Shown in pieces: positions 33,492-59,154 of a stretch of 64,000 nucleotides of DNA (its first letter is position 1; every line of letters begins with the position of its first letter). Under the pieces are notes generated by a model, which made no database searches, was not told the DNA's origin, and saw only the letters and a list, made by a program, of their open reading frames with translations. Source of the stretch: Sphingomonas ginsenosidivorax. GTDB taxonomy: Bacteria; Pseudomonadota; Alphaproteobacteria; Sphingomonadales; Sphingomonadaceae. A program made the position numbers and the translations under genes. The stretch is taken from the NCBI RefSeq assembly GCF_007995065.1, contig NZ_VOQR01000002.1:1-64000 (forward strand), written 5' to 3'.

Positions 33492-34168
33492 GCCGGAACC
33501 TTTTCATTCAGGAGGTTGAGAACGTCGAGCGTGAAAGCCGCGGCGTTCGAGCGAGCCGTGGTCAGCGAGCCGACATCGGTATTCTTCAGGCTGGCGAGCG
33601 TTCCCCCGAGGCTGAAGAGCGCCCGAAAGGCGCCGCGATCGGCTAGAGCCGTGTTGATCACGGGAATGCCCGCTTCCTGAAGACCGACGATGATCTGCTT
33701 CAGGTCACGGGGCCAGAGACGATCGGATGCCTGTGTCTTGGCGAGTACCGCGGCGAACTTCAGCGGGGTCTCTCGGTGCTTCGAGACCTGACGCACGTTC
33801 TTGAACGCCCGAGCGGCCTCGTTCGAATCCAAGGCCGACCCTTGCATCGGGATCAGCGCGAGATGGGAGACGAGAAGAGCATTGGTGACGCGGCCGGACG
33901 CCCTGCCCTCCAGGTCGACAATCACGAACTTGGCCCGCTTGCGCGCTTCCGTGATCGTATCGATGATCGTCTCCTCGTCGACCTCCTCTATCACCTCGAT
34001 GTTGTCGGGCTTGCCAGGTAGTGCCGCCCATTTCGAAAGTGGGAAGTTCGGATCGGCGTCGATCAGGATCACGTTCGCGTTTTGCGCAGCGAGCTCCGTA
34101 GCGAGCAGGAGCGCTGTCGTGGTTTTGCCCACGCCCCCCTTCGGTGACAACAGCGTGATAACCGGCAT
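33488..34168 (-). CDS. parA: ParA-family partition ATPase
   Basis: The 226-residue Walker-type ATPase has the deviant Walker A motif KGGVGKTT at residues 10-17 (MPVITLLSPKGGVGKTTTA), the A' motif ILIDADPNFPLSKW, and the Walker B region KFVIVDLEGRASG. It is small and lacks an N-terminal regulatory domain, as in type Ib partition proteins. ATG 34168 follows GGAG, while the frame upstream is not protein-like. It should position plasmid copies with its RHH partner and the repeats upstream. Confidence 0.88.
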   Translation of the reverse strand: MPVITLLSPKGGVGKTTTALLLATELAAQNANVILIDADPNFPLSKWAALPGKPDNIEVIEEVDEETIIDTITEARKRAKFVIVDLEGRASGRVTNALLVSHLALIPMQGSALDSNEAARAFKNVRQVSKHRETPLKFAAVLAKTQASDRLWPRDLKQIIVGLQEAGIPVINTALADRGAFRALFSLGGTLASLKNTDVGSLTTARSNAAAFTLDVLNLLNEKVPA

Positions 34169-41622: not shown

Positions 41623-41632
41623 CGCGAACGAA

Positions 41633-41657
41633 GGCCCGGAAGCGAAGCTCCCGGGCC
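41633..41657. terminator. bidirectional terminator, Abi/ssb
   Basis: GGCCCGG pairs with CCGGGCC, with an inner AGC-GAA-GCT stem, between the convergent Abi gene and ssb copy 1. A sequence-related hairpin follows ssb copy 2 at 47993-48016. Confidence 0.7.
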
Positions 41658-41669
41658 GATCCGCCTCGA

Positions 41670-42074
41670 TCAGAAGGGAATGTCGTCGTCGTCGTTGTCC
41701 TGCCGATTGTCCTGCTGCTGGCGGGACTTGCCGTAGGAGAGGAACGTCACTTCGTCGGCGATGATCTCGACGCCGTAGCGCTCGATGTTCTCCTGGTCGG
41801 TCCAGCGGGTATAGTGGATGCGACCGCGAACCATCACCTTCTGCCCCTTTTCGACATACTCGGCGACCGTCTTGGCGACGCCGTTGAAGCAGGTGACCCG
41901 GTGCCACTCGGTATCTTCGACCCGGTGACCGTTCTCCTTGAGGACCTTGCCCTCGCTATCGCGCTTCGGGCGCGAGGTCGCGAGGCTGAAGCTGGTGATC
42001 TTGGTGCCGCCCTGGGTGGAGCGGGTCTCGGGCGTGGCGCCGACGTTGCCGGCGAGGATGACGAGGTTCTGCAT
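41670..42074 (-). CDS. ssb: single-stranded DNA-binding protein, copy 1
   Basis: The 134-residue SSB has an OB fold (MQNLVILAGNVGATPETRSTQGGTKITSFSLATSRPKRDSEG, DTEWHRVTCFNGVAKTVAEYVEKGQKVMVRGRIHYTRW) and the acidic tail DDDDIPF that recruits repair and replication proteins. ATG 42074 is the usual family start. It differs from copy 2 at about 30 positions in the protein but shares leader and terminator elements. It protects plasmid single-stranded DNA. The leader contains a type 1 structured element 110 nt upstream. Confidence 0.93.
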   Translation of the reverse strand: MQNLVILAGNVGATPETRSTQGGTKITSFSLATSRPKRDSEGKVLKENGHRVEDTEWHRVTCFNGVAKTVAEYVEKGQKVMVRGRIHYTRWTDQENIERYGVEIIADEVTFLSYGKSRQQQDNRQDNDDDDIPF

Positions 42075-42464
42075 TTCGAGGTTCCTTTTTTGCTCCGCCG
42101 GGGGATCGTCCCCTCGACTGAACACCGTCAAAGACGGTCAGGACGACCTCTCCACCGGAGCGCGAAGACGCGGAGGGGAACCCCGATCAAAGGGGTGGTG
42201 CGGGCAGCCGCGTAAGCGGCAACTCGGCCCGAATGATCGCGGGTTGGAGGGGGTGGACGGCCGGCTTAGGTCGTTCAGGAAAGAGAGGGGATGAACCCCA
42301 CGGCAGTGCAAATGCCGACGATCCGACGATCAGGACCTGGTCGCTACCAGGATGGCGTGACACTCGACTTCAGCCGTCCGGTCAAACCTACGGACCGGCG
42401 TCTCATGGTATCAGCGAGCGACGCGGCTGAGCGGGTTGGCTTGCCGTTCGCACTCGCTGACCCT
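42075..42464. other. ssb copy 1 upstream region
   Basis: About 390 bp between ssb copy 1 and the end of the TIR gene. It holds leader element type 1 at 42184-42239, and beyond it a block CTTAGGTCGTTCAGGAA shared with the ssb copy 2 upstream region. No gene seen. Confidence 0.5.
42184..42239 (-). promoter_or_regulatory. leader element type 1, copy 1 (structured RNA candidate)
   Basis: On the minus strand, CGATCA and TGATCG form the outer stem. Inside, GTTGCCGC-TTAC-GCGGC is a hairpin followed by the conserved TGCCCGCACCAC. The near end is 110 nt from the ssb start. Other copies are at 48542-48597 and 51280-51344. Confidence 0.6.
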
Positions 42465-43172
42465 TCAGGACGTTTTCACCAGCTCGGCCAGTTTATCCGC
42501 GACGATCTCCAAAGAGTCGTCTTCCGTCGAGAGGCCGTTGCGCGATGCGAGCAGCGGACTGACCATGCGCAAGGCGTCATAGGTGGTGTTGTGAACGATA
42601 GGTACGAGCTGGTCGGTTGCGAGCAGCGCGGAAAGCTCCCGGTCGGCGACACCGCCGGACGGGAGGCGCGTGAGTAGCGCGGGTGTAACCAGGACGATGC
42701 CGACACGTGACTTGGCGAGGCCGCGATCGATCTCACGAAGAAAGGACGATCCGAGGGGAATGTCCTTCTCGCTGAACCAGACCGAAACGTTGCGCGCGAT
42801 CAGGAGGTTATAAAGCTTGGTCGCGTCATCCAGACGGTCAGCCCAGGCATGGCACAGGAAGAGTTCGCGGACATCGGGAAGGGAAGCGCGCTTCTCGACC
42901 GTCTCACGGATAGGCTCGAGCGCTCTGGCCTCGACCGGCGTGTAGTACACGGTGGATGTCGGCTTGGACCATTTCGCCTTGACGGTGCTCGCACCACGCC
43001 CCGACGATGCTCGATACGAAGGGGAAGGAGAGGGGCTGTATCCGCCACCATAGCCGCCACCATACCCGCCGCCATAGCTTCCACCGTAACGACTCTTGTA
43101 CCGGCATGCAGGACAATTGGCGGCTGCGCTTGCGGTTCGATGACCTTCCCGGGGCGCTGTACACTGAGCCAT
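42465..43172 (-). CDS. TIR-domain protein with zinc-knuckle and Gly/Tyr-rich N-terminus
   Basis: A 235-residue protein. Residues 1-23 (CTAPREGHRTASAAANCPAC) have Cys4, His11, Cys20 and Cys23 in a zinc-knuckle-like arrangement, followed by a Gly/Tyr-rich repeat (residues 29-50). Residues 100-230 are a TIR domain: DVRELFLCHAWADRLDDATKLYNLLIARNVSVWFSEKDIPLG with the catalytic-type Glu135, then FLREIDRGLAKSRVGIVLVTPALLTR. Bacterial TIR domains degrade NAD+ or make cyclic ADP-ribose signals in anti-phage defence. No partner gene is adjacent on the same strand. Confidence 0.82.
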   Translation of the reverse strand: MAQCTAPREGHRTASAAANCPACRYKSRYGGSYGGGYGGGYGGGYSPSPSPSYRASSGRGASTVKAKWSKPTSTVYYTPVEARALEPIRETVEKRASLPDVRELFLCHAWADRLDDATKLYNLLIARNVSVWFSEKDIPLGSSFLREIDRGLAKSRVGIVLVTPALLTRLPSGGVADRELSALLATDQLVPIVHNTTYDALRMVSPLLASRNGLSTEDDSLEIVADKLAELVKTS

Positions 43173-43682
43173 GCGACGACCTCCCGTGTTGCTAGATTGT
43201 TCTAAATATCGGGCTGTCGTTGATCGATTTCAATCAATGTTTGATCGCTGCTTAGACCGATGATGACCTTGGCCTACGGAAGCCCGGCAGAGTGGTCCGA
43301 TCAGCTTAAGCGGAGCGGGTTCGATGCCCGCCCCTCCCGTCTCACGGCTCGAGAGGAGCCTCTCGGCCTTCCTCTCGGTGTTAGGCGAAGGGATCGTACG
43401 ACCCGTTCCACGGACCATACCAACGAACTCGTCGCCTGCGCACGACGCCCGGCATCACACGGGCCTCAGACGCGGAGATGTTGCCTATTTTCGGAAAGAA
43501 GTTCCCTCGTGGCTGGGCCCCCGTCAGTCAATCGTCACCCGATAGGGCCGAGACTCAACGGGGCTCGGTGGAGCGGCGAGCGGAATAGAGCGATGGTCCC
43601 GGCGTCAGGGGGGAGACGCCATCCGTCACGGACGATAGCAGCGCGACCTTGACCAACCGGACTTTTGCGGCACGTTTGAGCC
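43173..43682. other. intergenic region between TIR and HEPN/TrlF genes
   Basis: About 510 bp between divergent genes. Leader element type 4 copy B is at 43493-43620. The plus-strand frame 43260-43652 and the short minus-strand frame 43230-43418 have no recognisable product and are not accepted. Confidence 0.5.
43493..43620 (+). promoter_or_regulatory. leader element type 4, copy B
   Basis: Matches 38215-38346 closely. The GGCCGAG...CTCGGT stem is kept although the loop sequence changes (ACCGCCCGCGGG to ACTCAACGGGG). It ends 63 bp before the HEPN-like gene. Confidence 0.5.
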
Positions 43683-44492
43683 ATGGATAAGGATGATCTG
43701 AGGTCTGGAGCGGAAGAACCGATGCAGATGCCGGCGCATGCCCGCACCGGTGCTCGCGACATCGTCGAACCCTTGTTTCCTCACGTCGAGACGGAGCCTG
43801 TGGCCGGGTCGGACCTGGACGACGATGCGGACGATGACGGGAAGGGCGGTTACTACGTCATCCCGGAAGAGGCGATGCAGTACCTGCCGGAGGAGTGGCG
43901 GCTCGCGCTGCAAGCCCGGGCCGAGGAGGGGCGGCGGGTTCTCGCGTTGGCCGACAACGAGCTGAAGCAGCTCTCGCGGCTATCTCTTTCCTACTACCAC
44001 GTCGTCGTGCTTCGACACGTGGGCGATCGCTTGGCCGAGTACCGCTTCAAGGCCGACATGGAAGCGTTGCTCGAACTCGATATGCTGACGACGGCGTTCC
44101 TGGCCACCTACGCCCGCCTCTACACCGGCGGCGCTGGCAGCGGCTTCGCGCGCAATGCGCTGCCCGAGCCGCTCCGCGCCGCCCACGACGAGATCATCGA
44201 CCTGCGCAACAAGCGCTACGCCCACGTCGAGGAGCATCACTCGGTCAACGACGAGATGGGGATCGTCGAGGAGGAGGATGGTCGCTTCGTCATCACCCTG
44301 GGAACGCGGCTGGGCGTCTATATCGGCGGGTCGAACGACTGGCCGAAGCTCGTCGACGCGCTCGACGAGATATTCGCTGAGCGCGGTGCAAAGATCATTG
44401 CTAGACTCCAGGCTCGTACAGGTCGCGAGTGGACGATCGCGCAGGGTTCACCGCCGGACGGGCTGAACGAAGGCGGGAGGGGGGAGCGATGA
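43683..44492 (+). CDS. HEPN-like protein, partner of TrlF ATPase
   Basis: The 269-residue protein has an acidic disordered N-terminus (residues 1-55), then a helical domain with EIIDLRNKRYAHVEEHHS around residues 178-195. The Arg followed by His (R-x5-H) and the helical context resemble a HEPN ribonuclease or its inactive relative. Its TGA overlaps the ATG of the TrlF gene (ATGA), so the two proteins are made together, a layout typical of two-gene defence systems. Exact activity unknown. Confidence 0.62.
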   Translation: MDKDDLRSGAEEPMQMPAHARTGARDIVEPLFPHVETEPVAGSDLDDDADDDGKGGYYVIPEEAMQYLPEEWRLALQARAEEGRRVLALADNELKQLSRLSLSYYHVVVLRHVGDRLAEYRFKADMEALLELDMLTTAFLATYARLYTGGAGSGFARNALPEPLRAAHDEIIDLRNKRYAHVEEHHSVNDEMGIVEEEDGRFVITLGTRLGVYIGGSNDWPKLVDALDEIFAERGAKIIARLQARTGREWTIAQGSPPDGLNEGGRGER

Positions 44493-47452
44493 CGTCGTAC
44501 AACCGGGCGGGTGTCGGATCGGTATGGCGACGCTGGGATCCCCACGTCCATGCTCCGGGCACGCAGCTCAATGATCTGTTCGCTGGCGCTACCGCGTGGG
44601 AGGATTACCTTTCGAAGCTGGAGGGCATCACGCCGGCGCTCGAGGTGATCGGCCTCACCGACTATTACAACACCGATACCTATGCCCGTCTTCGCAAGGC
44701 CAAAGACGAAGAGGGTCGGCTCCCCGACTGCACGACGTTGTTCCCGAACATTGAGATGCGCCTCGGCCTCGGTACTGCGGCCGGGGCCTGGGTGAACGTC
44801 CACCTGCTCGTTTCGCCAGAAGACCCGGATCATCTGACCGAGCTCAACCGCATCCTGTCGAACATCACCTTCGCGGCACTCGACGATCGCTTCAGCTGCA
44901 CGCCCGCTGACCTTGCCAGACTGGGCTTCAGAGCAGACCCTTCCATCCGCGACGAGGGCGCGGCACGGCGCTTCGGCTCGACGCAGTTCAAGGTCAGCTT
45001 CGAGCAGCTGAAAGAGACTTTCAGCAGCTTCCGCTGGGCACGGGAGAATATCATCGTGGCCGTCGCGGCGGGGGCGGACGGCACTTCGGGGCTTCGCGAC
45101 GGTGCCGATGCGACGCTGCGGCGGGAGGTCGAGAAGTTCGCGCGTGCGGTCTTCTCCGCGACGCCCGGGGATCGAGACTTCTGGTTGGGCCGCAAGCTGT
45201 CGGCTGAGGAGTTCCAACGAAAGTACGACAGGGCGAAGCCCTGTCTGCACGGCAGCGATGCGCACGAGCTCGATCGCGTTGGCGCGCCCTATGGCAACCG
45301 CTTCAGCTGGATCAAAGGGGCACCGACCTTCGATGCGCTTCGGCAGGCGTGCATCACGCCGGAACGCGCCTTCGTCGGCGAAGTCCCGCCGACAGGTGCG
45401 TCGCGATCCCAGGTCATCACCGGCGTGGCGATCCGTGATGCGCTCTGGGCGGCGACGCCCGACATTCCTCTTAATCCGGGCCTCGTCACGATCATCGGAG
45501 CACGGGGATCGGGCAAGACCGCGCTTGCCGAAATGATTGTTGCCGGGTGTGACGCCGTGCCGCTGCCGCTTGAGCGCAACAGGCAGTCCTTCCTGTGGCG
45601 CGCTCGGGAGTTTCTTGAGGACGTCGCCGTGCAGATCCGCTGGGCGGCGGGCTCGGCTGATGAACGATCGATCGCGGACGCGACGGAAGACGACACCTTC
45701 CAGATCAGACGAGCCCAATATCTGTCACAGCAGTTCGTCGACCGGCTGTGCTCGTCGGATGGCGTCTCGGACGAGCTGCTCCGCGAGGTCGAACGCGTCG
45801 TCTTCGACTCCCACTCGGTCAGCACTCGCAACGGCGCGACAGACTTCGACGCGCTGTTGAACCTGAGGGCCGCGCGCCACCGCGAAGCCCGTAGCCGGGA
45901 CGAGACCGCCCTGATCAACCTGTCGGATCGGATCGGGGAGGAGATCGAGAAAACCAAGAGCATCGCCACGCTGCAGAAGCTCATCACCGAACGCGAGCAA
46001 TCCGTGGCGCGGGCAACGCAGGAGCGCGCGGCTCTGGTGAAGAAGGGCGACGCACTGACGGCCGCACGCCTTACCGATGTTAGTGCCGCGGCCGAGACCG
46101 TGCGGAGCTATGTCCGGCATTTCAGCGTACAGGAGCAGCAGCTCCTCACCTTGCAGGACGAGGTTGCCGACTATCGGCACAATCAGTCGCCCGAAACGCT
46201 GCGTCGCCTACAAGCCAAGTTTGGCTCGAGCGGCCTCAAGGATGCCGACTGGGATCCGTTCGGCACCGATTTCGTCGGCAAGGTCGAAGAGCTGCTGGCC
46301 GATCGCCTGAAGAAGACGCGGGCGAGTGGTGCGTCCTGGAAGGGCGTGCCCCCCGATCCTGCAATTCCTCCCGCGCCGCTACCGCCCGACTGCGAGCTGG
46401 CGCGTCAGCCGTTGGCAACGCTTGAGCGCGAGATCTTCCGCTTGGGACAGATCATCAACGTCGATCGCGCGACCCAGGACAAGTTCACACAGCTGACCAA
46501 CCGCATGACGAGCGAGGGTGATCTCGCCAAGGCATTGAAGGAGCGCCTGGCGGATGCGAACGGCGCGGCCCAGCGCCGGGAAGCCCTGATTACTGAACGG
46601 ACGCGAGCCTATCGCAACGTCTTCGCGGCCGTGATCGCGGAGGAGCGGGTTCTCAATGACCTCTACGCGCCCATCAAGACGAGGCTCGAGGCGGCGCCGG
46701 GAACGCTGGGGAAGCTGTCCTTCACGGTGCGACGGGTCGCGAACGTCCAGCAATGGGCGCGCGCGGGGGAGGCCTTCGTCGATCTGCGCAAAGCCGGACC
46801 GTTCAAGGGACGCGGGACGTTGCTCGAGTTGGCCGACGATCGTCTTTGCCGCGCGTGGTTGAGCGGGACAGCGGAAGAGGTCTCCGACGCGATGCGGGCC
46901 TTCCGCACAGCACACGATCAGGTGCTACTGGCGAGCTCGCGGGTGAGCGAGACCGATCCCGCTGCGCACCGTACCTGGCTTCGGGCGTTCGCAAAGTGGC
47001 TCTACAGTACAGATCACATCAGCGTGCAATATTCGGTTCGGTACGAAGGCACCGATATCCGCAACCTATCGCCGGGGACGCGGGGCATCGTGTTGCTCCT
47101 GCTGTACCTTGCACTGGATCAATCCGATGACCGGCCGCTGATCATCGATCAGCCGGAGGAAAATCTCGATCCCAAGTCAATTTTTGACGAGCTGGTTCCG
47201 CTGTTTGCGCAGGCCAAGCTCCAGCGCCAAGTCATCATGGTAACGCACAACGCCAATCTCGTCATCAACACCGATGCTGATCAGATCATCATCGCGGAGG
47301 CGGGCACGCATGTGCCGGGCGCCATGCCGCCAATCTCCTACCGGTCTGGCGGACTAGACGAGGAGGACATTCGCAAGCGGGTGTGCGCCATCCTCGAGGG
47401 CGGCGAGGATGCGTTCAAGGAGCGGGCCCGCCGCCTGCGCGTCGGGCTCTAA
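44489..47452 (+). CDS. TrlF-family PHP domain/SMC-like ATPase
   Basis: A 987-residue protein. The N-terminal PHP-type metal hydrolase shows WDPHVHAPGTQ (HxH, residues about 15-24), EVIGLTDYYN and CLHGSDAHELDRVG. An ABC/SMC-like ATPase follows with the Walker A motif IIGARGSGKTALAE near residues 334-347, a long coiled coil (residues about 470-750), the signature LSPGTRGIVLLLLYLAL and the Walker B motif PLIIDQPEENLDPKSIF near residue 880. This architecture is that of TrlF and related RloC/PrrC-like ATP-gated nucleases thought to act in phage defence. It is intact and coupled to the HEPN-like gene. Confidence 0.85.
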   Translation: MTSYNRAGVGSVWRRWDPHVHAPGTQLNDLFAGATAWEDYLSKLEGITPALEVIGLTDYYNTDTYARLRKAKDEEGRLPDCTTLFPNIEMRLGLGTAAGAWVNVHLLVSPEDPDHLTELNRILSNITFAALDDRFSCTPADLARLGFRADPSIRDEGAARRFGSTQFKVSFEQLKETFSSFRWARENIIVAVAAGADGTSGLRDGADATLRREVEKFARAVFSATPGDRDFWLGRKLSAEEFQRKYDRAKPCLHGSDAHELDRVGAPYGNRFSWIKGAPTFDALRQACITPERAFVGEVPPTGASRSQVITGVAIRDALWAATPDIPLNPGLVTIIGARGSGKTALAEMIVAGCDAVPLPLERNRQSFLWRAREFLEDVAVQIRWAAGSADERSIADATEDDTFQIRRAQYLSQQFVDRLCSSDGVSDELLREVERVVFDSHSVSTRNGATDFDALLNLRAARHREARSRDETALINLSDRIGEEIEKTKSIATLQKLITEREQSVARATQERAALVKKGDALTAARLTDVSAAAETVRSYVRHFSVQEQQLLTLQDEVADYRHNQSPETLRRLQAKFGSSGLKDADWDPFGTDFVGKVEELLADRLKKTRASGASWKGVPPDPAIPPAPLPPDCELARQPLATLEREIFRLGQIINVDRATQDKFTQLTNRMTSEGDLAKALKERLADANGAAQRREALITERTRAYRNVFAAVIAEERVLNDLYAPIKTRLEAAPGTLGKLSFTVRRVANVQQWARAGEAFVDLRKAGPFKGRGTLLELADDRLCRAWLSGTAEEVSDAMRAFRTAHDQVLLASSRVSETDPAAHRTWLRAFAKWLYSTDHISVQYSVRYEGTDIRNLSPGTRGIVLLLLYLALDQSDDRPLIIDQPEENLDPKSIFDELVPLFAQAKLQRQVIMVTHNANLVINTDADQIIIAEAGTHVPGAMPPISYRSGGLDEEDIRKRVCAILEGGEDAFKERARRLRVGL

Positions 47453-47567
47453 GCCCATGGGAGACGCTGCGAGAAGCTGGTCACCACGCGCATAGCGGCT
47501 GAGGCGGGAGAGTGGTCGACGCTTTGCTCGTGCGATCGATCGCGGCGGTGCTGACTAGCGGGAGCGA

Positions 47568-47906
47568 TCAGGAACCAGGAGCAGATGGTGGGGTCTCTGA
47601 GGCGGCTTCCTCGTCGGACCCGCTGACACCCAGAGCATCGACTCCCGCGGGCGTGAGGACGAAGCTGCCATCGGCCCGCTCAAGCCAGAATCCCTTCGCG
47701 GTCATCCATCCTGTAGCCGCGGCAAAGCCCGGCGCGCGGACGTGGTGGGGTACGTGGTCGAGCGGTTCGGCCATGAGCCGCTGCACGTCGGCCATCGTGA
47801 AGCGGCGAATGCCGCGTTGCGCGGACGGCTTGAGCACCTGCAGCAGCGTGTCGAGCCAGAGCTGTTCCATCGGTGGTTGCGGCTTCACACCGAACAAATT
47901 CTGCAT
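47568..47906 (-). CDS. hypothetical protein downstream of ssb copy 2
   Basis: The 112-residue protein (MQNLFGVKPQPPMEQLWLDTLLQVLKP, then RRFTMADVQRLMAEPLDHVPHHVRAPGFAAATGWMTAKGFWLERADGSFVLTPAGVDALGV) reads like a small winged-helix-type protein. A perfect AGGAGG site precedes ATG 47906. It lies 122 bp after ssb copy 2 on the same strand, beyond the terminator hairpin. No family name can be given. Confidence 0.62.
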   Translation of the reverse strand: MQNLFGVKPQPPMEQLWLDTLLQVLKPSAQRGIRRFTMADVQRLMAEPLDHVPHHVRAPGFAAATGWMTAKGFWLERADGSFVLTPAGVDALGVSGSDEEAASETPPSAPGS

Positions 47907-47992
47907 CAAACCCTCCTGTCTGACGCTTCGAGATGGTGCCGTTCGCCGCAGCTCACAAGAAAGGGTACGCCGGTGAAGCCTATGGCAGCGTT

Positions 47993-48016
47993 GCCCGGGA
48001 GCCGAGGCTCCCGGGC
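47993..48016 (-). terminator. terminator hairpin after ssb copy 2
   Basis: GCCCGGGAGC and GCTCCCGGGC form a perfect 10-bp stem around CGAG, 12 bases past the ssb stop. Confidence 0.7.
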
Positions 48017-48028
48017 TGGCTGAGGCCG

Positions 48029-48436
48029 TTAGAAGGGGATATCGTCCTCTTCGTTGTCCTGCGTCGGACCCTGCTGCTGCCGCGACTTGCCGTAGGAGAG
48101 GAACGTCACCTCGTCGGCGATGATCTCGACACCGAAGCGCTCGACCTGCTGCTGATCGGTCCAGCGGGTATAGTGGATGCGGCCGGTGACCATCAGCTTC
48201 TGGCCCTTCTCGACGTTGTCCGCGACCGACTTGGCGACACCATTGAAGCAGGTGATGCGGTGCCACTCGGTGTCGTCGATTCGCCGGCCCTGCTCGTCCT
48301 TCAGGACCTTGCCCTCGCCGTCGCGCTTCGGACGCGAGGTCGCGAGGCTGAAGCTGGTGATCTTGGTGCCGCCCTGAGTGGTGCGGGTCTCGGGAGCGTT
48401 GCCGACGTTGCCGGCGAGGATGACGAGGTTCTTCAT
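48029..48436 (-). CDS. ssb: single-stranded DNA-binding protein, copy 2
   Basis: The 135-residue SSB starts MKNLVILAGNVGNAPETRTTQGG and ends in the acidic tail EEDDIPF. It is clearly a paralogue of copy 1 at 41670. ATG 48436 is chosen by comparison with copy 1; the frame is open upstream but that part is leader. Its leader holds a type 1 structured element 106 nt before the start. Together the two copies bracket the TIR and HEPN/TrlF genes. Confidence 0.93.
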   Translation of the reverse strand: MKNLVILAGNVGNAPETRTTQGGTKITSFSLATSRPKRDGEGKVLKDEQGRRIDDTEWHRITCFNGVAKSVADNVEKGQKLMVTGRIHYTRWTDQQQVERFGVEIIADEVTFLSYGKSRQQQGPTQDNEEDDIPF

Positions 48437-48958
48437 GACGAGGTTCCTTCTGTGTCTGCCTCGGGGTCCGTCCCCTCGGCTGAACACCGTCGAAGACGAC
48501 CAGGCCGGCGGCTCCACCGTAGCGCAAGCGAAGGGGAACCCCGTGGTGAGGAGTGGTGCGGGCAGCCGCGTCAGCGGCAACACGGTCCGACGACACGCGG
48601 GTTGGGGCCGATGGTCGGTCGGCTTAGGTCGTTCAGGAACAAGAGGGGATGGCGCCGTCGGCAGGCGCTGAGCGAGGAAGCTCGGGGGGAAGCTCGCTCC
48701 TGAGTGTTTTCACGTCTCACACGCTCCGATCCGCACCGGTCACTGCGGTGATGCCATCGCACCCGGGACCGGGCAGTCCGACGCCGGCGAGGCTTGTCCG
48801 GCGATACGCCGCCTCACGACACTATCACGCTCTGCAATTACCATCCGGCTCGCCTAGGTGGGACAGCGGCGAGAGATCCCGATTGCGCCATTGGCAATGG
48901 CCCTCCGGCGCACGATGCCCATCTTCAACAGGCGGGCTGCAATCGCCATCTTCGAGAC
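48437..48958. other. ssb copy 2 upstream region
   Basis: About 520 bp between divergent genes. Contains leader element type 1 (48542-48597) and the shared block GGCTTAGGTCGTTCAGGAA (near 48620). Nothing else recognised. Confidence 0.5.
48542..48597 (-). promoter_or_regulatory. leader element type 1, copy 2 (structured RNA candidate)
   Basis: The outer stem is CGTG/CACG, different from copy 1. The inner hairpin GTTGCCGC-TGAC-GCGGC and TGCCCGCACCAC are conserved. It is 106 nt from the ssb start. Confidence 0.6.
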
Positions 48959-50152
48959 ATGAACAGCCGTGACGAGACGTCTGCCCCAACTGCAAGCAGG
49001 CCGGGGTATGACGGAAAGATGGTCGCGTTACCGCGCGTGGAATTGGTCGAGGCGGGGGACATCCTGCTCACCTCGAACGTCTTCAGCGATGATCGCGTGG
49101 GTCTGAAGCAGTCGGGGGCGATCCGACGGATGACGGGCGGCAGGTTCAGCCACGCCCTCATCTGCTCCAGCCCGCCCGTGTTCGTGGAGGCGATCGGCAC
49201 CGGCGTCAGCACTTTGTCGCTGGCTCGATGCTTCGCCCATGACATCGCCAATGTCAGACTGCTCCGCTATCCCGACCGGAGCGTTGCGAGGGAAGCGGCG
49301 AAGCTCGCGCAGTATGAGATCGGTCGCGATTATTCCGTGGCACGCGCCGTCCGATCGGTCTTCCCGGCCGGAATCCTGGATCGGGTTCACGATCATGGGA
49401 TCTTCTGCTCCGCGCTGGTAGCGCAGGTGTTCCTCAGCGCGGGCGCGTCGCTGTTTGGAGAGACGCCGGTCTATCGGACGACGCCCGCAACGCTCGATAA
49501 GCTGAGCGGTCTCATCGACCTGACGTCCACGGCCTTCCGGTCGGGACTTATGCCCCGAAACGCGGAGACGATGTCGGCGTTGGACGGCGACAGGGCACCG
49601 ACGCTCTCAGCGCGGCAGACCGAACTGTCCGCCAACTGTGCCCGCGCGGTCTGGCCGATGGTGGAGGTGCTGATCGCCGCCTATCCGGAAGCCGGGCTGG
49701 CGGCGCAGCCGGCCTTCTATAGCATCCTGAAGCTCCTGACCGAGGCGATCGATCGGCGGAGCGCTGTTCTGGATGGTCGACGCGATGCGTTCGATCGCGA
49801 CGTGCGCGCGCTCGATAGAGGCCTCGCCGCGTCGCTACGCGGTGGTGAGCTTGCTGCCCTGCTCACCGAGATCGAGAACGTCGACGGCAAGGGGATGATG
49901 ATGGCGATTGCGCAATCGTTCGCGGAGAAGCCCGACGTCGACCTTGACGCCATGCAGGGTATGCTCAAGGCCGGGATCGTCCAGCTCGATGAGCGCAACG
50001 AGGCGATCGATGCCTGGGAAAGGCGGGGGCCGGACCGATCGGAGGCTTTGAAGCTCTACCTTCCGGTCGAACGATCGGCTGCGGCAGGCATCGCGCGGCG
50101 CAATCAGGCAGCGCTCGAGATCCTCGAACGGAGCGGCAGGGTCGTCACGTAA
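48959..50152 (+). CDS. permuted papain-like (YiiX/NlpC-P60-type) protein
   Basis: A protein of 397 residues. The N-terminal domain shows the circularly permuted papain-like pattern of YiiX/YebB-type proteins: VEAGDILLTSN, MTGGRFSHALI with the catalytic-type His, EAIGTGVSTLSL, YEIGRDYS, and FCSALVAQVFLSAG with the catalytic-type Cys. Residues 220-397 are helical and unrecognised. Such enzymes act on amide bonds in peptidoglycan or lipids. No signal peptide is present, so it may work in the cytoplasm. ATG 48959 is the first reasonable start; Met at 49019 is an alternative. Confidence 0.72.
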   Translation: MNSRDETSAPTASRPGYDGKMVALPRVELVEAGDILLTSNVFSDDRVGLKQSGAIRRMTGGRFSHALICSSPPVFVEAIGTGVSTLSLARCFAHDIANVRLLRYPDRSVAREAAKLAQYEIGRDYSVARAVRSVFPAGILDRVHDHGIFCSALVAQVFLSAGASLFGETPVYRTTPATLDKLSGLIDLTSTAFRSGLMPRNAETMSALDGDRAPTLSARQTELSANCARAVWPMVEVLIAAYPEAGLAAQPAFYSILKLLTEAIDRRSAVLDGRRDAFDRDVRALDRGLAASLRGGELAALLTEIENVDGKGMMMAIAQSFAEKPDVDLDAMQGMLKAGIVQLDERNEAIDAWERRGPDRSEALKLYLPVERSAAAGIARRNQAALEILERSGRVVT

Positions 50153-50180
50153 CCAAGAAAGCAGAGCACTGGGCCGATCT

Positions 50181-50208
50181 TCCGGTCGCCGCTCAAACGG
50201 CGACCGGA
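50181..50208. terminator. bidirectional terminator hairpin
   Basis: TCCGGTCGCCG pairs perfectly with CGGCGACCGGA around CTCAAA, between the plus-strand papain-like gene and the minus-strand DUF2493 gene. Confidence 0.7.
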
Positions 50209-50236
50209 GGGATTGGTAGCGTTCATCGGGATGGCC

Positions 50237-51175
50237 TTACCCCGACATGGCCGCTGGCGGCGTGCCGAGGGGACCACGGCGATCGACGACGCGGATGCCG
50301 GCCTTCTTCGCGTCGATCACCAAGCGCTCCGTCACGCCGTTACCTTTAAAGGCGATGACGTACCGGGGCTTCAGCGAGAGCATCTGTTCGTTCCGACGGA
50401 AGCCGGCCCGGTCGCCGAGCTTGCGATCGAGACCGAAGCGGACTTGCTGGATACCGTGCTGTTCTGCCCAGGATGCCGCGATGCGCTCGATCCCCTTCAT
50501 GTCGCCGCCATGGACGAGATACATGTCGCCGACGCGCTCCCAAACCGCATTGAGCGTGCGCAGCAGGTTGTCGCCGAACGCCTTCATGTCCTCGTCGGTC
50601 CGGAAGGTCAGCCGTCCCCCGGCAAACACGACGGGAGTGCCCTGTGCCGTGTTGGCGTCGCGGGCGCGCTCGCGGCGAGCCTGGAGGAAGGCTCGACCGT
50701 CGACGATCGCTGACGTGACCCCGAGCGAAATGCGGTTGCCGGTCGACGGGATCCAGGAACGGCCGGTCTCGCGGATGTAGTGCGCCGCTGCGGTGTCGCG
50801 CATCACTTCGTAGCAGGTGGCCGCTTCCTCGATCTTCTTGGCAAGGTCGATCTTGTCCTCGAGGTTGGAGGTGTTGATCTCCGACCCGTCCTGCTCGGCC
50901 AGGAGGAGCCTGATCTCGTCGGTGAGACGGTCGATCGTCGCGTGCTTCTTCGCCGCGGCCCGGTGGAAAAGATTGACCAGGCCCCAGCCCATCTCCTCGA
51001 TGTCGCGCTCGAGCGACGTATTCTGGAGGGTTGCGAAGAGGTCGCTCCAGATAGCGGTGGTGGTCTGCTCAAGTGCGTCGGTCGAGGGAGGGCACATGCC
51101 CGAGACATCTTCGGCGCGGGGTTCGAGGTGTCCCAGCTCCAGTGCGGAGAGTGCGGCAGCGAGGGAAGTGGTCAT
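50237..51175 (-). CDS. DUF2493 (SLOG-fold) protein
   Basis: The 312-residue protein has an N-terminal helical region (residues 1-190) and a C-terminal DUF2493/YspA-like SLOG domain: VVFAGGRLTFRTDEDMKAFGDNLLRTLNAVWERVGDMYLVHGGDMKGIERIAASWAEQHGIQQVRFGLDR, LKPRYVIAFKGNGVTERLVIDAKKAGIRVVD. The Gly-rich GG-xF and HGG motifs suggest binding of a nucleotide-derived ligand. DUF2493 proteins are frequent on plasmids and near defence loci. Start ATG 51175 is chosen because the leader element lies just upstream. Confidence 0.82.
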   Translation of the reverse strand: MTTSLAAALSALELGHLEPRAEDVSGMCPPSTDALEQTTTAIWSDLFATLQNTSLERDIEEMGWGLVNLFHRAAAKKHATIDRLTDEIRLLLAEQDGSEINTSNLEDKIDLAKKIEEAATCYEVMRDTAAAHYIRETGRSWIPSTGNRISLGVTSAIVDGRAFLQARRERARDANTAQGTPVVFAGGRLTFRTDEDMKAFGDNLLRTLNAVWERVGDMYLVHGGDMKGIERIAASWAEQHGIQQVRFGLDRKLGDRAGFRRNEQMLSLKPRYVIAFKGNGVTERLVIDAKKAGIRVVDRRGPLGTPPAAMSG

Positions 51176-51279
51176 GGGGTCAAGCCCTTCATCTGATCGA
51201 GGCCGGCGGCCTATCCGCCGGATGCGCACCTCCTGGGCGGCCGAATAAGAGGCGCCCGCACCGAAGAGCAGCGCAGGGA

Positions 51280-51344
51280 AACCGCAAAAACCGGGGTGGT
51301 GCGGGCAGCCGCAGAGCGGCAACTCGGCCCGGATTTTTGCGGTT
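51280..51344 (-). promoter_or_regulatory. leader element type 1, copy 3 (structured RNA candidate)
   Basis: The outer stem is 11 bp: AACCGCAAAAA with TTTTTGCGGTT, unrelated in sequence to the outer stems of copies 1 and 2. The core GTTGCCGC-TCT-GCGGC and TGCCCGCACCAC are conserved. It is 105 nt from the DUF2493 start. Confidence 0.62.
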
Positions 51345-51401
51345 GCGGGGGTCTCGCGGCCGCCCATGTGCCGCATCTCTCTGGCGGAAGGCTGTCGGGC
51401 G

Positions 51402-51647
51402 TCAGGTGGCGTCGGGCGCGGCCGGGACCATAATCGTTGCCGCCTTCGAACCTCTCGGGCTCAGCCCACACCGCGCGATGTCGTCGAGAATGGCCTGCCC
51501 CGTTCCGCACAGACGTACCATCGCCGCTGGGGTGATCCTCAACCCTCCATCGGCGTCGATCGCGTCGATCATGATGCGGAGCTGGTCCACCAGATCCTCG
51601 CTCCGGGTTGCGGCATAGCCCGCGCAGGCCGCCACACCAGAGAACAC
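51402..51647 (-). CDS. small hypothetical protein
   Basis: About 81 residues from GTG 51647, or 78 from a second GTG at 51636. The core SEDLVDQLRIMIDAIDADGGLRITPAAMVRLCGTGQAILDDIARCGLSPRGSKAATI is protein-like. It lies 18 bp past the neighbouring broken gene, in the same direction. No ribosome-binding site stands out and no family is recognised. Confidence 0.45.
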   Translation of the reverse strand: MFSGVAACAGYAATRSEDLVDQLRIMIDAIDADGGLRITPAAMVRLCGTGQAILDDIARCGLSPRGSKAATIMVPAAPDAT

Positions 51648-51665
51648 GCCCGGGACGGGCAGGGC

Positions 51666-51891
51666 TCAGGCGTCGCCTCCATCGGGGACGAAGCGCCAAG
51701 GATCGACGTCGGCACCTTCTGCGACTGCGCTGACATAGGTGGGATGCTCCGTGTCCAGGCTCTTCCACCCGTCGGTCGTGTGTGACGCATCGATCGCGGA
51801 GCGACAGGCGCTGACGACATCCTCCGCCTCGACCGTGATTTCCGCACGGTAATGGGCAGGGTATTCGAAAGGGGCCGGTGAAGGTCTTCAT
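51666..51891 (-). pseudogene. small plasmid gene with 1-bp frameshift
   Basis: ATG 51891 reads MKTFTGPF and then leaves frame. After one extra base the text becomes EYPAHYRAEITVEAEDVV, then ACRSAIDASHTTDGWKSL and a tail ending DPWRFVPDGGDA, stopping at 51666-51668. Removing one base from the four-C run (51871-51874 in plus coordinates) restores a 74-residue protein. The rest of the frame is well preserved, so this is either a recent mutation or a homopolymer sequencing error. Confidence 0.6.
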
Positions 51892-55047: not shown

Positions 55048-56015
55048 GGCGGACCTGCATGGTCGCCGAAGGCGCCGGCAGGGAGTGTCCAACGATCCGC
55101 AAGGATCGGAAGACACCACGTCGGATCGTCCGCCTGGGCGAGTTCGTCCGGGTTAATCAGCGCGGCCGGGAAGGGTGTTCCGCGCTCGGCGAGCTGCGAC
55201 ACGCTAAGGGAGCGATGAATGGTCTTTCCGCTCGCCGCCTCGCAGGCGCCGATGCGCTGGAAAGCGGATGGGAAGACGAGGCGAAGCGTCGCCTATTGAG
55301 CGGGGGAGCCAAAGATACAGGCTCGGCAGGATAGCCGGCCCCACCCCAGGACGTAGGCCGGGTGGAGCCGGATCCGCGATCGTGCGATCAAATCCCACAC
55401 CTGCCGCTCGGCCCAGTCGTGGACCGGACGCCAATGGTCGACGGCGCGAGCGAGCGTGGACGTGCGGTGCGGCTCGAAGGCCGCATAGCGCGCGCGGGAC
55501 GGGCTTTCCTCGGCGCGCTCGCCGGTGATGACGAGCGTGCGGCCGTCAAGGAAGCGTGACTAATTCCGGATCGCGGCCGCAAGGACGTCGATCTTCAGCG
55601 CGGGGCTGCACCAGCGCACCCGAAGATCGGGAGACGTTTGGGGAAAGAGCCCTCGCGTGCCCGCAGGGCCGTTACCTCCGGCACGGCCGATGTCGGTCGG
55701 CGTCTCGAACGCGATCGGCGCGGTTGGTGCGTCGTCCCGCGCGAGTTCGCGCGCGAAGCCGCCCGCGCGCCACGAGACGTAGAGCGCGATGCCGAAATGT
55801 TCGGCGATCGCGCGGACATAGCCGGGCGTGCAAGGCCAATCCATGAAGCTCGGGCCGTGGCCATCGACATCATGATGGTGCAGCTCGATGGCGTGCGGAG
55901 GCACGCCGAGGCTGAGGAGGTGCAGGAGGGCGGCAAGGCTGTCCTTGCCGCCACTGAACGCCACGACGAAGCGCCGGTAGGCGCCTAGGTCGAGGCGGGC
56001 GTCCTGCGCGGTCAT
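55044..56015 (-). pseudogene. second PP-loop PAPS-reductase-like gene with two in-frame TAG codons
   Basis: The frame from ATG 56015 gives a DndC/PAPS-reductase-like N-terminus (RRFVVAFSGGKDSLAALLHL) and stops at TAG 55560-55562. The same frame continues with family-typical FLDGRTLVITGERAEESPSRAR, HWRPVHDWAERQVWDLI and RLSCRACIFGSPAQ. It meets a second TAG at 55293-55295, continues to LAERGTPFPAALINPDELA and ends at TGA 55044-55046, which overlaps the next gene. Full length would be 323 codons. The first TAG replaces an expected Gln, the second probably a Trp. No frameshift is seen. Confidence 0.72.
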
Positions 56016-56935
56016 GCTGCTTCACGGATCTGATCCTCGGACTCGGCCGAGACGACGAGACCCGTTGCGCGGAGCAGGTAGCCGGCTGCGGCCTCGGCCT
56101 TGGCGGCTGCGGTCATTATCGCGCGGCTGTCCTTGCGCAGGACCTTCAACCACGAGCCGATATACGCGGCGTGGTCGTCCATGTGCGAGGTCGGCAGGCC
56201 GAGATCGGCACCGAGCAGCGCGGAGGTCATCTCGGCGCACAGCTCCTCGAACGCGTAAGCGTCGTCGCCGAAACGCTTCCCAAAGGTGCGATCGAGGCGG
56301 TCGGGATGGCCGCTCCAATGGCCCGCCTCATGAGCGAGCGTCGAGGCCCAATAGGCGCGGGTCGAGAACAGCTCGACGGGCGGCATGGTGATGCTGTCGG
56401 CGATGCGGTCGTAGAACGCGCGATCGCCGCGCATCTGGAGCTTCGCCGGCAGCGCGTCGATGAAGCGCTGCGCGCGGTCGGGAAGTTGGTCAGCGGGAGG
56501 GACGATGCTGACCGGGCTCGGGTAGTATTCCGGCGAAAGACCGTCGATCTGGTCGCAGTTGAACACGGCGTAGGAGCGCAGCACGCGGCGCATCTCGTCC
56601 GTGGTGTCGCCGGTGACGACGGATTCTACGGTCTTGCTGTAGGATTTGTAGAAGATGGCGATCTGCGAGCGTTCGCCTTCGCGGACCTGGCCGCCAAGCG
56701 CCTGCGCCTGCTTGTACGTCATCCAGGTGCGCGAGTTGTAGCCCGCGCCCTCGGCGCACAGCCACAACCAGAAGCAGTTGATGCCCTTGTAGGGGTCGCC
56801 GGTCGCGCGCAGCGGACGGCCGCCAAGGCCGGGGCGCCAAGGCTTGACCCAAGGGCGCACGCCCGATTCTAGCTTGTCGATGATGGTGTTGGTGATGATG
56901 TCGGCAGGCGACGGCTTGTCGTTGGTCTGTGCCAT
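56012..56935 (-). CDS. ardC: ArdC anti-restriction protein
   Basis: The 307-residue protein has the ArdC N-terminal ssDNA-binding domain (DIITNTIIDKLESGVRPWVKPW, YKGINCFWLWL, RTWMTYKQAQALGGQVREGERS) and a C-terminal zincin-like metallopeptidase with HEAGH near residues 201-205 and a third-ligand Glu in YAFEELCAEMTSALLG. ArdC protects incoming plasmid DNA during conjugation. The stop overlaps the PP-loop gene start. Confidence 0.92.
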   Translation of the reverse strand: MAQTNDKPSPADIITNTIIDKLESGVRPWVKPWRPGLGGRPLRATGDPYKGINCFWLWLCAEGAGYNSRTWMTYKQAQALGGQVREGERSQIAIFYKSYSKTVESVVTGDTTDEMRRVLRSYAVFNCDQIDGLSPEYYPSPVSIVPPADQLPDRAQRFIDALPAKLQMRGDRAFYDRIADSITMPPVELFSTRAYWASTLAHEAGHWSGHPDRLDRTFGKRFGDDAYAFEELCAEMTSALLGADLGLPTSHMDDHAAYIGSWLKVLRKDSRAIMTAAAKAEAAAGYLLRATGLVVSAESEDQIREAA

Positions 56936-57075: not shown

Positions 57076-59154
57076 CTAGGCCGCCTCGCTCAGATGCTGA
57101 TCGTCGTCCTGATCGTGGTCGGTGCCCTCATCATCGATGTCGGCGCCGGCGTCGGTGTCGGTATCCTCGTCCTCGTCGGGGTCTGTGCCGCGCTCGTCAT
57201 CGACGAAGCTGGAGCGAAGCGCCGTCCTGGCGGGTTTCTCTTGCGCCTCGAAACGCATCGCCTCGGGTAACCAGGCCGTCGCCTTCTCGCGGATCTCGGC
57301 CTCGACGATGCCCTGACCGTTGCACAGTGACGAGCAGGTCGCGGCAAGGTCGCCCTTCTTGGCGTCCTTGTAGCGGCCGCGCAGAATCGGCCCGCCAATC
57401 TCCTCGAGCGCTTCCAGCATGACGCCCTTCTTGACGCGGCCGAAGAAGTTCTCGGCCGTCGGGCGCCACCAATTCTCGACCTGGATGTCGAGGAGGCGGC
57501 CGAGATGGTCGTGGAAGCCGTTGCTGCGATAGCCCTCGGCGACGTTGAGCGTCGGTTCGAGAGTTCGTGCTATCGAGTATGCAACCCATGCGCCCCGGGC
57601 CTCGTCATCGAGCGCCCGGAAGGCGTCGAACCGTTCGGTCATGGTCTTGTGGCCCGCCCAGCTTGTGTCGAGCCGCTGGCGCTGGTCGTCGATGGTCTGC
57701 GACGCCATCGAACCCTCGTCGCGGAAGGCGAAGATCGGGAAGGCGGCTGCACCCGACTTCAGGGTCGAGTGATTGGGGATGTGGCTCTGCTCGAACACGA
57801 CATTCTGCGCCATCAGGAAGATGGTCAGGTCAAGCGCCATTGAGGGATCGCTGGCGAGGTGCGCGACGAGGATCTGGCGGCGTCGGGTCGCCAGTTCGTC
57901 GATCAGCGTGGCGCTCAGTTTCGGCCCCTGATCGAAGTCGCCGGCATCACCGTCACCGGCTGCGCCGCCTGACGCTTTGGGCGGTGCGTTGGGGTCGACA
58001 ACCGGCTTCTCGCTGAACAGGCCGGTGTGAACGCGGGGCTCGCCGTCGCCGCCGATATAGACGAACGTGCCGATTTGCGCTTTCACCGCTGGATCGATCT
58101 CGTGACGGGCATCGTCAATCGCTTCCAGCTCGCGCTCGATCGCCTCGATGCGCGCGCTGGCGGCTTCGGCCTCGATGCTGCCATCGGGGAGTTCCTGCTC
58201 GAGCTGGTCGACCAGAGTGTCGTTCTCGGCCGACAGCGCCTCGACACGCGCGGTTTCCTCCTCGGTGAGCGCACGCGCGGGAGCGTGAAACTCGTGGAGC
58301 TGGTTCGCGACGTCGTAGGGGACGTGCGTGGCCGCTATGGGCGTGACGAACGCGAGGCCCTCGGCCTGCGCCAGTTCGGCCGCGGCCGCTTCCAGCTTCT
58401 TGGCCGCGAGCGTCTCGATCAGATCGACGTCGATCCAGTTCTCGTCGCCCTCGGTCGCGAAGAGGTCGCCCTCGATGCGACCGCCTGCGGCGACATAGGC
58501 ATCGCGACCAACGAAGCGGGCCTTGGCGTCGTTAGCCTTGACCGTGCCGTTGAGGATGGCGCGCCGGATATTGTCGGGATTGTCGCCATAGTAGGAGTTG
58601 TTCATCTGGGTGAACACGCGGGCCTGACGGTCGATGTCGGTGGTGACGGCGTATGCCTGCGCGACGCCGAGCGTGATCTCGCCTGTGGCGAGCGCCTCGA
58701 AGACGCACGCCGCCAGCTCGGCGAGGCGCACGCGCTGCTCGACGAAGCGGGTGGTGACGCCCTGACGCTTGGCGACGTCCTCGGCGGTCATGCCCTTCTG
58801 GATCAGGAAGTTGAACGCGGTGCATTCATCGGCCGGATTCATCGGCACGCGCTGGAAGTTCTCGGCGAGGCTCACCTCGATCGAGTTGTCGTCGTCGCTT
58901 AGCACAAGGACCGGGACGGTATGGTCAGCGGGAAGGGTGCCCTGCTCGATCAAGAGCTGGAGCGCGCGCAAGCGACGACCGCCTGCCTTCACGGTAAACG
59001 TACCCGCTTTCTTGAGCGGGGTGACGATCAGGTTCTGCAACAGCCCCTGGGCTGCGATGTTGGCGGCGAGGGTGTCGATGCCGGCATCGCGGTTCGACTT
59101 GCGCACGTTGTCCTTCGACAGCGACAGGTTCTTGACCTTCACGGACTGGATCAT
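57076..59154 (-). CDS. ParB/RepB/Spo0J-domain protein, large
   Basis: The 692-residue protein has the ParB N-terminal CTPase-type domain (NVRKSNRDAGIDTLAANIAAQGLLQNLIVTPL, KAGGRRLRALQLL, LAENFQRVPMNPADE) and a helix-turn-helix (TAEDVAKRQGVTTRFVEQRVRLAEL, near residue 120). The C-terminus is much longer than a partition ParB, with a coiled coil near residues 300-345 and an acidic tail (last 40 residues). No parA is adjacent. This form is typical of plasmid accessory regions beside ArdC and large helicases, so a role other than partition is likely. Confidence 0.85.
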   Translation of the reverse strand: MIQSVKVKNLSLSKDNVRKSNRDAGIDTLAANIAAQGLLQNLIVTPLKKAGTFTVKAGGRRLRALQLLIEQGTLPADHTVPVLVLSDDDNSIEVSLAENFQRVPMNPADECTAFNFLIQKGMTAEDVAKRQGVTTRFVEQRVRLAELAACVFEALATGEITLGVAQAYAVTTDIDRQARVFTQMNNSYYGDNPDNIRRAILNGTVKANDAKARFVGRDAYVAAGGRIEGDLFATEGDENWIDVDLIETLAAKKLEAAAAELAQAEGLAFVTPIAATHVPYDVANQLHEFHAPARALTEEETARVEALSAENDTLVDQLEQELPDGSIEAEAASARIEAIERELEAIDDARHEIDPAVKAQIGTFVYIGGDGEPRVHTGLFSEKPVVDPNAPPKASGGAAGDGDAGDFDQGPKLSATLIDELATRRRQILVAHLASDPSMALDLTIFLMAQNVVFEQSHIPNHSTLKSGAAAFPIFAFRDEGSMASQTIDDQRQRLDTSWAGHKTMTERFDAFRALDDEARGAWVAYSIARTLEPTLNVAEGYRSNGFHDHLGRLLDIQVENWWRPTAENFFGRVKKGVMLEALEEIGGPILRGRYKDAKKGDLAATCSSLCNGQGIVEAEIREKATAWLPEAMRFEAQEKPARTALRSSFVDDERGTDPDEDEDTDTDAGADIDDEGTDHDQDDDQHLSEAA

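Follow-up and report, generated by a model that had tools for sequence, protein, structure and literature searches.

A covarying element before ssb and DUF2493 genes of alphaproteobacterial plasmids as a candidate leading-region promoter on single-stranded DNA

The DNA analysed here (the window) comprises the first 64,000 nucleotides of contig NZ_VOQR01000002.1 of Sphingomonas ginsenosidivorax, and it carries three copies of a structured element before two genes for single-strand binding protein (SSB) and one DUF2493 gene, with copies and genes all on the minus strand. The apical part of copy 1 (42167..42253) precedes ssb1 (41670..42074; PF00436, E 4e-29), that of copy 2 (48525..48611) precedes ssb2 (48029..48436; PF00436, E 1.1e-26), and that of copy 3 (51268..51352) precedes the DUF2493 gene (50237..51178; Pfam YAcAr, SLOG family; PF10686, E 6.1e-17); both ssb genes were searched with one additional codon ahead of the start. 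With R1, a covariance model built from 62 elements, the three copies scored 81 bits (E 9.4e-16), 76.3 bits (E 1e-14) and 82.5 bits (E 4.4e-16), respectively. A motif search placed their cores, which consist of CCGWGTT, an inner hairpin and TGCCCGCACCAC, at 42195..42227, 48553..48585 and 51296..51327, and GCGGCTGCCCGCACCAC occurs exactly at 42195-42211, 48553-48569 and 51296-51312. A preliminary description of this DNA had named these three sites and the outer stems CGATCA/TGATCG, CGTG/CACG and AACCGCAAAAA/TTTTTGCGGTT, all of which we recovered. It had also put each copy 105-110 nt from a start codon, which holds for copies 1 and 2 (109 and 105 nt) and not for copy 3, which lies slightly closer (101 nt), counting from the 3′ ends given there, with ssb starts chosen by script and the DUF2493 start as given to the Pfam search.

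When up to 3 mismatches to GCGGCTGCCCGCACCAC were allowed, the window contained 4 matches against 0.95 expected, a number reached by 3 of 100 shuffles; the fourth match, at 4398-4414 with 3 mismatches, falls inside a weak R1 match (13.2 bits, E 0.85). Across the whole genome (4.14 Mb, 2 contigs), up to 2 mismatches yielded three additional matches, all on the other contig and each with 2 mismatches, and an R1 search at E up to 1 returned the three copies only.

On the coding strand, the element is laid out as an AACCC...GGGTT outer stem, an intermediate stem of 3-5 bp, CCGWGTT, an inner hairpin of any sequence and TGCCCGCACCAC, followed by the returning arms. The core is invariant and asymmetric while the stems vary. 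We quantified the covariation that the preliminary description had seen in three copies with an alignment, A1, of window copy 1 and 61 other elements, redundancy-filtered from 103 (102 that passed a stem filter, plus L057). Its covariation score was 0.404 against 0.140 in shuffles, with 189 against 73 cells changed on both sides, and such changes affected 7 of the 8 pairs of the intermediate and inner helices. Pairing in A1 reached 98.4% in the intermediate helix, 95.5% in the inner and 66.4% in the outer one, percentages that the stem filter inflates. When no pairing filter was applied (the rows were still aligned to the model), R1 matches scored 0.460 against 0.138 (A2, 109 distinct rows) and 0.446 against 0.135 (A3, 88 distinct rows), and paired at 96.6% and 97.3% in the intermediate helix and at 95.4% and 93.6% in the inner helix. 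Among 123 occurrences found by the core motif only, all three intermediate pairs were present in 100, two in 7, one in 6 and none in 10.

The pairing extends into the flanks. In 26 clusters, outer flanks paired with their own partner at −57.3 kcal/mol, compared with −44.2 kcal/mol (sd 1.25) for permuted partners, and none of 5000 permutations was as low. No other downstream partner was better in 11 of the 26 clusters, and flank pairing was not outstanding in L028, L241 and L243, where 11, 23 and 25 partners, respectively, were better. Since the flanks pair beyond the 56-65 nt noted at first, the unit is about 190-200 nt long and ends near the ribosome site. By eye, the outer 3′ arm of many copies could alternatively pair between the outer helix and the ribosome site (GGGA-NGG-TCCC), so that an alternative fold of this arm may exist.

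We then compared the two strands. For this purpose we used 142 distinct elements, required to have at least 2/3 intermediate pairs and 3 Watson-Crick inner pairs, a rule that drops some R1 matches (e.g. L009); two window copies are included, and copy 3, identical to a copy in the plasmid L157, was merged with it. From those with enough flank, 57 cluster representatives (88% clustering) were taken, and the fold of each strand was compared with dinucleotide shuffles. The template strand of the downstream gene lay further below its shuffles in 46/57 with RNA parameters (Wilcoxon p 1.2e-7) and in 47/57 with DNA parameters (p 1e-9), and at 80% clustering it was favoured in 21/26 (RNA, p 3e-4) and 23/26 (DNA, p 1.6e-6). 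Control windows from the same loci, folded with RNA parameters only, favoured it in 31/57 (p 0.81). The flanks by themselves favoured it in 33/57 (RNA, p 0.009) and 46/57 (DNA, p 5e-8), and the strand bias is mainly in the full unit. In the window, the full units on the plus strand, which is the template and the proposed transferred strand, span 42106..42294, 48462..48657 and 51205..51396. DNA folds of 42104-42302, 48462-48660 and 51205-51405 gave −46.4 kcal/mol (z −2.71), −51.2 kcal/mol (z −1.96) and −64.3 kcal/mol (z −4.40), respectively; the coding strand of copy 3 folds at −56.0 kcal/mol (z −3.09).

The hairpin tips are an independent sign of a template-strand fold. In 76 distinct inner hairpins, read on the coding strand, 30 of the 47 triloops are TNC (GNA on the template) and a single one is GNA; TNNC (GNNA on the template) is the tip in 8 of the 24 tetraloops, and GNNA in none. 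The GNA triloops on the template are closed by C:G in 19 of 30 cases. Counted by cluster, 17 of 25 have tips of the T type only, 1 has both types and 7 have neither; counted by element, the T type occurs in 87/142 and the opposite type in 1. Tips of the form d(GNA) are exceptionally stable in DNA.

The three copies belong to a large unnamed family. The check proposed in the preliminary description, a covariance model together with Rfam, produced many more matches upstream of ssb and none in Rfam, where a search of the region at the gathering threshold and at E up to 5 returned nothing relevant. By blastn at E up to 10, copy 1 matched 97 plasmid records and copy 3 matched 132; the best-scoring were sphingomonad plasmids, and the lists include likely chance matches, e.g. 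in Nonomuraea, Subdoligranulum and Streptomyces. At least 120 stretches matched a degenerate core pattern in genomes taken at one per species. R1 at E up to 0.001 matched 123 of 397 genomes of the window's family (Sphingomonadaceae), 5 of 385 drawn from its class and 9 of 398 drawn from its phylum, as well as 36 of 345 in the family of genome G331 and 23 of 247 in that of G554; these samples overlap, and the class, phylum and same-family samples include the window's own genome. All 9 matched genomes of the phylum sample fall within the window's class, the share of the 398 outside that class not being given. Weak R1 matches in Caballeronia and Burkholderia contigs (E 8e-6 to 2e-4) suggest, from sequence, betaproteobacterial relatives. 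Two such contigs (L049 and L078) have two weak matches each, about 4 kb apart and with quite different outer stems.

Of the 123 motif occurrences read, 21 failed the stem filter; some of these, in contigs of Planctomonas, Clostridia and Gemmata, probably match by chance, and some others have R1 support (L049, L052, L057, L078). In five genomes (G797, G878, G1031, G1063 and G1121), two elements repeatedly lie on one strand at a distance of about 22.2-22.4 kb, and the pair in G797 sits deep within a large contig; such pairs suggest integrated conjugative elements. Viral sequences gave a few further candidates. Four pattern matches (L133-L136) were set aside as chance occurrences of the core (no outer stem, R1 E 0.018-0.2), and a second viral pattern, with 57 stretches, proved too loose. 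A full element of 58.8 bits lies in an unverified 4 kb phage record (MT839809, 'Bacteriophage sp.', L253), which is perhaps a plasmid fragment. Just after VP5 of the Gokushovirus KT264808 (L252), a hairpin has GCCGCTTACGCGGC and GCACCACC in common with copy 1 and lies on the strand opposite to the annotated genes of that single-stranded-DNA phage; it was rejected as a family member because the resemblance is limited to part of the hairpin and R1 does not match it.

We next read the genes behind the elements. A downstream gene was readable for 134 of the 142 elements, the other 8 lacking downstream sequence; the best start codon between 60 and 330 nt was selected by script, and Pfam was applied at E up to 0.001. 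The next gene encoded SSB in 108 cases, YAcAr/DUF2493 in 16 and neither in 10. The distance from core to start was 100-139 nt in 125/134, with a median of 119, an interquartile range of 115-123 and a full range of 89-299 nt. Seven other open reading frames start at 168-299 nt, and most of them look like wrong frames; the one in L220 is, by its size, likely a heavy-metal ATPase. A divergent class of the element (R1 E 0.005-0.018) precedes SprT genes in three small MOBQ plasmids. In L009, ParD/ParE are annotated behind the element, and an unannotated ssb start is visible in between. In L050 (1406-4573, minus strand), a single open reading frame of 1055 aa behind the element starts like SSB and continues into a TrwC relaxase domain (assigned by size), which is either a fusion or an assembly error.

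The gene block in which the copies lie is shared with related plasmids. The order repA, strawberry-notch helicase, ParB, ArdC, DUF2493, ssb, DUF3768 and ParA is collinear in the plasmid L007 and the window's plasmid, whose repA lies just beyond the window, and a similar block occurs in L157/L158. Within the window and in the same orientation (minus strand), the block includes a ParA-like gene (33503..34168; 44% identity to ParA of L007), an ArdC-like antirestriction gene (56012..56935; PF08401 and PF18818), a ParB-like gene (57076..59154; PF02195 and PF17762) and a gene for a strawberry-notch-like helicase (59282..63499; PF13872 and PF13871), and the DUF2493 protein shares 96% identity with its annotated counterpart in L007.

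As for transfer direction, 15 element-bearing plasmids were chosen from the blastn lists, and an annotated relaxase lay within 10 of the stretches; the stretches read from L010, L012, L164, L246 and L247 had none. In 10/10 relaxase-bearing stretches the element-preceded genes point towards the mobilisation region, and in 9/10 a nic-like site, by motifs known from other plasmids, would make the template strand the transferred one (6 TATCC(T/G)GC, 3 MOBQ-type). In L007, L162, L163, L245 and L248, 40-62 nt separate the TATCC(T/G)GC site from the relaxase operon behind it; the site of L157 overlaps the first bases of the operon's small first gene. An 8-bp inverted repeat stands before the site in L007 and L157, and the remaining four have GGCGCCAAGCC in front of it (L163 also has a 6-bp repeat). 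The strand of the site leads into the ssb side in each of the six plasmids. The three MOBQ plasmids (L159-L161) have a 6-bp inverted repeat followed by ATAAGCGCGCACT, with the same direction, and the MOBF plasmid L249 agrees by gene order alone. If these nic rules hold, ssb and DUF2493 of the relatives have the transferred strand as their template, and the shared gene block argues for the same transfer direction in the window's plasmid.

A known precedent for such an arrangement is Frpo of the F plasmid. Stem-loop promoters of this kind stand in front of ssb and further leading genes and act on the entering strand (PMC9849209 and PMC11541004, excerpts); in F, Frpo lies before ssb, uses the transferred strand as its template and is inactivated by second-strand synthesis (PMC9849209, excerpt). 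A template-strand fold on the leading side, before ssb, at a constant distance and sometimes in several copies makes a single-stranded-DNA promoter the most likely function of our element. We therefore read it, at a probability of roughly 60% and on computational analysis, as a leading-region single-stranded-DNA promoter that would resemble Frpo in working and be unrelated to it in sequence; the genes behind the copies are probably those that a conjugative plasmid needs first in a new host. When the plasmid enters the recipient single-stranded, the template strand would fold into the element. The RNA polymerase of the host, acting by itself or together with a core-reading factor, could use this fold as a promoter from which ssb and DUF2493 are transcribed ahead of second-strand synthesis. 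Because the core is invariant while the stems vary, it must be read by something. The small and stable GNA hairpin tips might help the fold to survive coating by SSB. Conversion to double-stranded DNA would erase the fold and switch the genes off, and a further role of the transcripts may be as primers of second-strand synthesis, which has been reported for Frpo.

Several observations weigh against this reading. The apical part alone (88-92 nt) favours the template strand in 36/57 with RNA parameters (p 0.14) and in 34/57 with DNA parameters (p 0.009). Wobble pairs favour it only slightly: cluster-level events number 24 A-C versus 17 G-T in the outer stem and 3 A-C versus 4 G-T in the intermediate and inner stems, counts too indecisive for wobble asymmetry to serve as a strand test, which we dropped. 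Other tips occur in 54/142 elements, above all in rhizobial ones. The consensus of 67 aligned elements shows no −35/−10 pair, and a linear, E. coli-type scan of 41600-51700, which does not score the folded stem itself, found 1 promoter-like site versus 1.0 expected and none at an element. Alphaproteobacterial promoters differ from the E. coli type, and the linear promoter and terminator scan, being at chance level, was discarded as evidence.

The transfer direction has weak points of its own. The nic motifs and their polarity are those of RP4- and RSF1010-type plasmids. TATCC(T/G)G(C/T) is common, with 2-6 sites per stretch and 31 in 7 stretches, and the site at the relaxase operon was the one used. 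The MOBQ motif fits both strands equally (2 substitutions each), so its direction rests on the side of the repeat, and the MOBQ plasmids carry only the divergent SprT-class element. In the window's plasmid, searches found no relaxase of PF03432, PF03389 or PF08751 and no TATCC(T/G)G(C/T) site preceded by a 6-bp inverted repeat, and an oriT was not found.

The preliminary description had taken the element for a structured 5′ leader RNA. It was right in seeing a cis element with structure and covariation that goes with ssb and related genes of plasmids. Action as a leader RNA is not supported, as the template strand folds better, the tips are largely GNA/GNNA on the template and the template would be the transferred strand in relatives; a unit of about 200 nt whose outer flanks pair speaks against it as well. 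A leader controlling translation or stability of ssb mRNA, e.g. by SSB binding its own leader to limit synthesis, would account for the strong covariation, the fixed distance to the start codon and the predominance of SSB genes, and an outer 3′ arm able to pair just before the ribosome site would suit a switch. However, the coding strand is the less structured one while control windows are balanced, the TNC tips on that strand correspond to no stable RNA loop type that we know of, and DUF2493 genes share the element yet do not encode SSB. No double-strand promoter was recognised at the elements either, a weak test. An RNA role is thus disfavoured, and we regard this explanation as unlikely. 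An antisense RNA transcribed from the other strand would be expected to show the same strand preference, which by itself cannot tell DNA from RNA; this alternative leaves the orientation towards the mobilisation region unexplained, and most tips are triloops such as are known from DNA (phage N4; PMC4496689, excerpt), so we consider it very improbable.

Two further explanations place the function in DNA. The element could be only a single-strand initiation site, a landing site of primase or RNA polymerase for second-strand primers, with its proximity to genes secondary. The strand is right for this, the invariant core looks like a protein-binding site, a gene with a toprim domain lies in the same block of three relatives, and Frpo/ssi transcripts have been described as primers too (PMC7736820, excerpt). 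Pure priming would not need the tight distance to the start codon, though, and in stretches with several copies (the window, L007, L157, L162 and L163) each copy stands before its own gene; initiation alone is therefore also doubtful as an account. Less probable still is a cruciform or operator in double-stranded DNA, at which a protein would bind the duplex palindrome and repress or activate ssb. Pairs in the intermediate and inner stems are almost exclusively Watson-Crick, wobbles of both kinds being few, and phage N4 shows that hairpins with such tips extrude from supercoiled DNA (PMC4496689, excerpt), but stem sequences that vary freely with pairing kept are not what a duplex-reading protein demands, and the two strands fold differently.

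The proposed promoter on single-stranded DNA can be placed beside known systems. Like Frpo and the ssi2 and ssi3 sites of F and ColIb-P9, the element of the relatives lies on the leading side before ssb or establishment genes, with a long folded template that is, under the nic rules applied, the transferred strand, and Frpo likewise has two copies in F. An R1 search at E up to 10 of 22 kb from the leading region of F, with the repeat upstream of ssb and the second copy included, gave no match, so there is no homology to Frpo; the region upstream of F ssb recurs at 17554-18012 of the stretch L250 (88.8% over 463 nt) and favours the template strand in 2/3 windows only, and both results count against the reading. 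The element also differs from Frpo/ssi in lacking recognisable −35/−10 boxes, which Frpo rebuilds in a folded stem, in its invariant core CCGWGTT/TGCCCGCACCAC with the inner hairpin, and in its hosts, which are Alphaproteobacteria plus the weak Caballeronia and Burkholderia matches. Given the missing R1 match to F, the lack of recognisable boxes and the 2/3 outcome, we do not class it as Frpo. The promoters of the N4 virion RNA polymerase have a template-strand G...A loop closed by C:G, to which 30 of our 47 distinct triloops correspond as GNA, 19 of these with the C:G closing pair. In N4, extrusion and stability depend on the 5′G and 3′A of the loop together with that closing pair, and the template-strand hairpin is spared by SSB (PMC4496689, excerpts). 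Unlike those promoters, the element is much larger, has several helices and occurs in conjugative plasmids. It resembles the Cis-reg leaders of Rfam in having covarying stems that keep a fixed distance to a downstream gene family, and differs from them in having no Rfam match and in that the other strand folds better.

The window's contig also holds features outside this comparison. It is 176,607 bp as assembled, and its ends (the first and last ~22 kb) look duplicated, with the same sites at 4558/159123 and 20746/175298, which puts the probable size of the circular plasmid at about 154.6 kb. Between or beside the element-preceded genes lie an Abi_2 gene (40768-41622, plus strand), a TIR gene (42465-43172, minus strand) and a large AAA ATPase gene (44429-47452, plus strand), the first and last oriented opposite to the element-preceded genes; all three look like inserted defence cargo.

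Tentatively, and with the odds somewhat against it, the element may represent a separate class of single-stranded-DNA promoters of alphaproteobacterial conjugative elements, in which no −35/−10 is rebuilt, the invariant unpaired core and an N4-like GNA mini-hairpin are recognised, possibly by a dedicated factor, and ssb and DUF2493 are fired only while the plasmid is single-stranded. In searches of the open-licence literature, no title or abstract opening named such an element in Alphaproteobacteria, and the main text of PMC11541004 has no mention of Alphaproteobacteria, Sphingo-, Rhizob-, Agrobacterium, DUF2493 or SprT. Early expression from incoming single-stranded DNA has been described for enterobacterial F and ColIb-P9 (PMC9849209, PMC11541004 and PMC7736820, excerpts). 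If our reading is true, the element would provide an entry point to the leading regions of plasmids and integrated elements in Alphaproteobacteria and would mark their first-acting genes, DUF2493 as well as ssb, and the covariance model would find and orient leading regions without knowledge of oriT.

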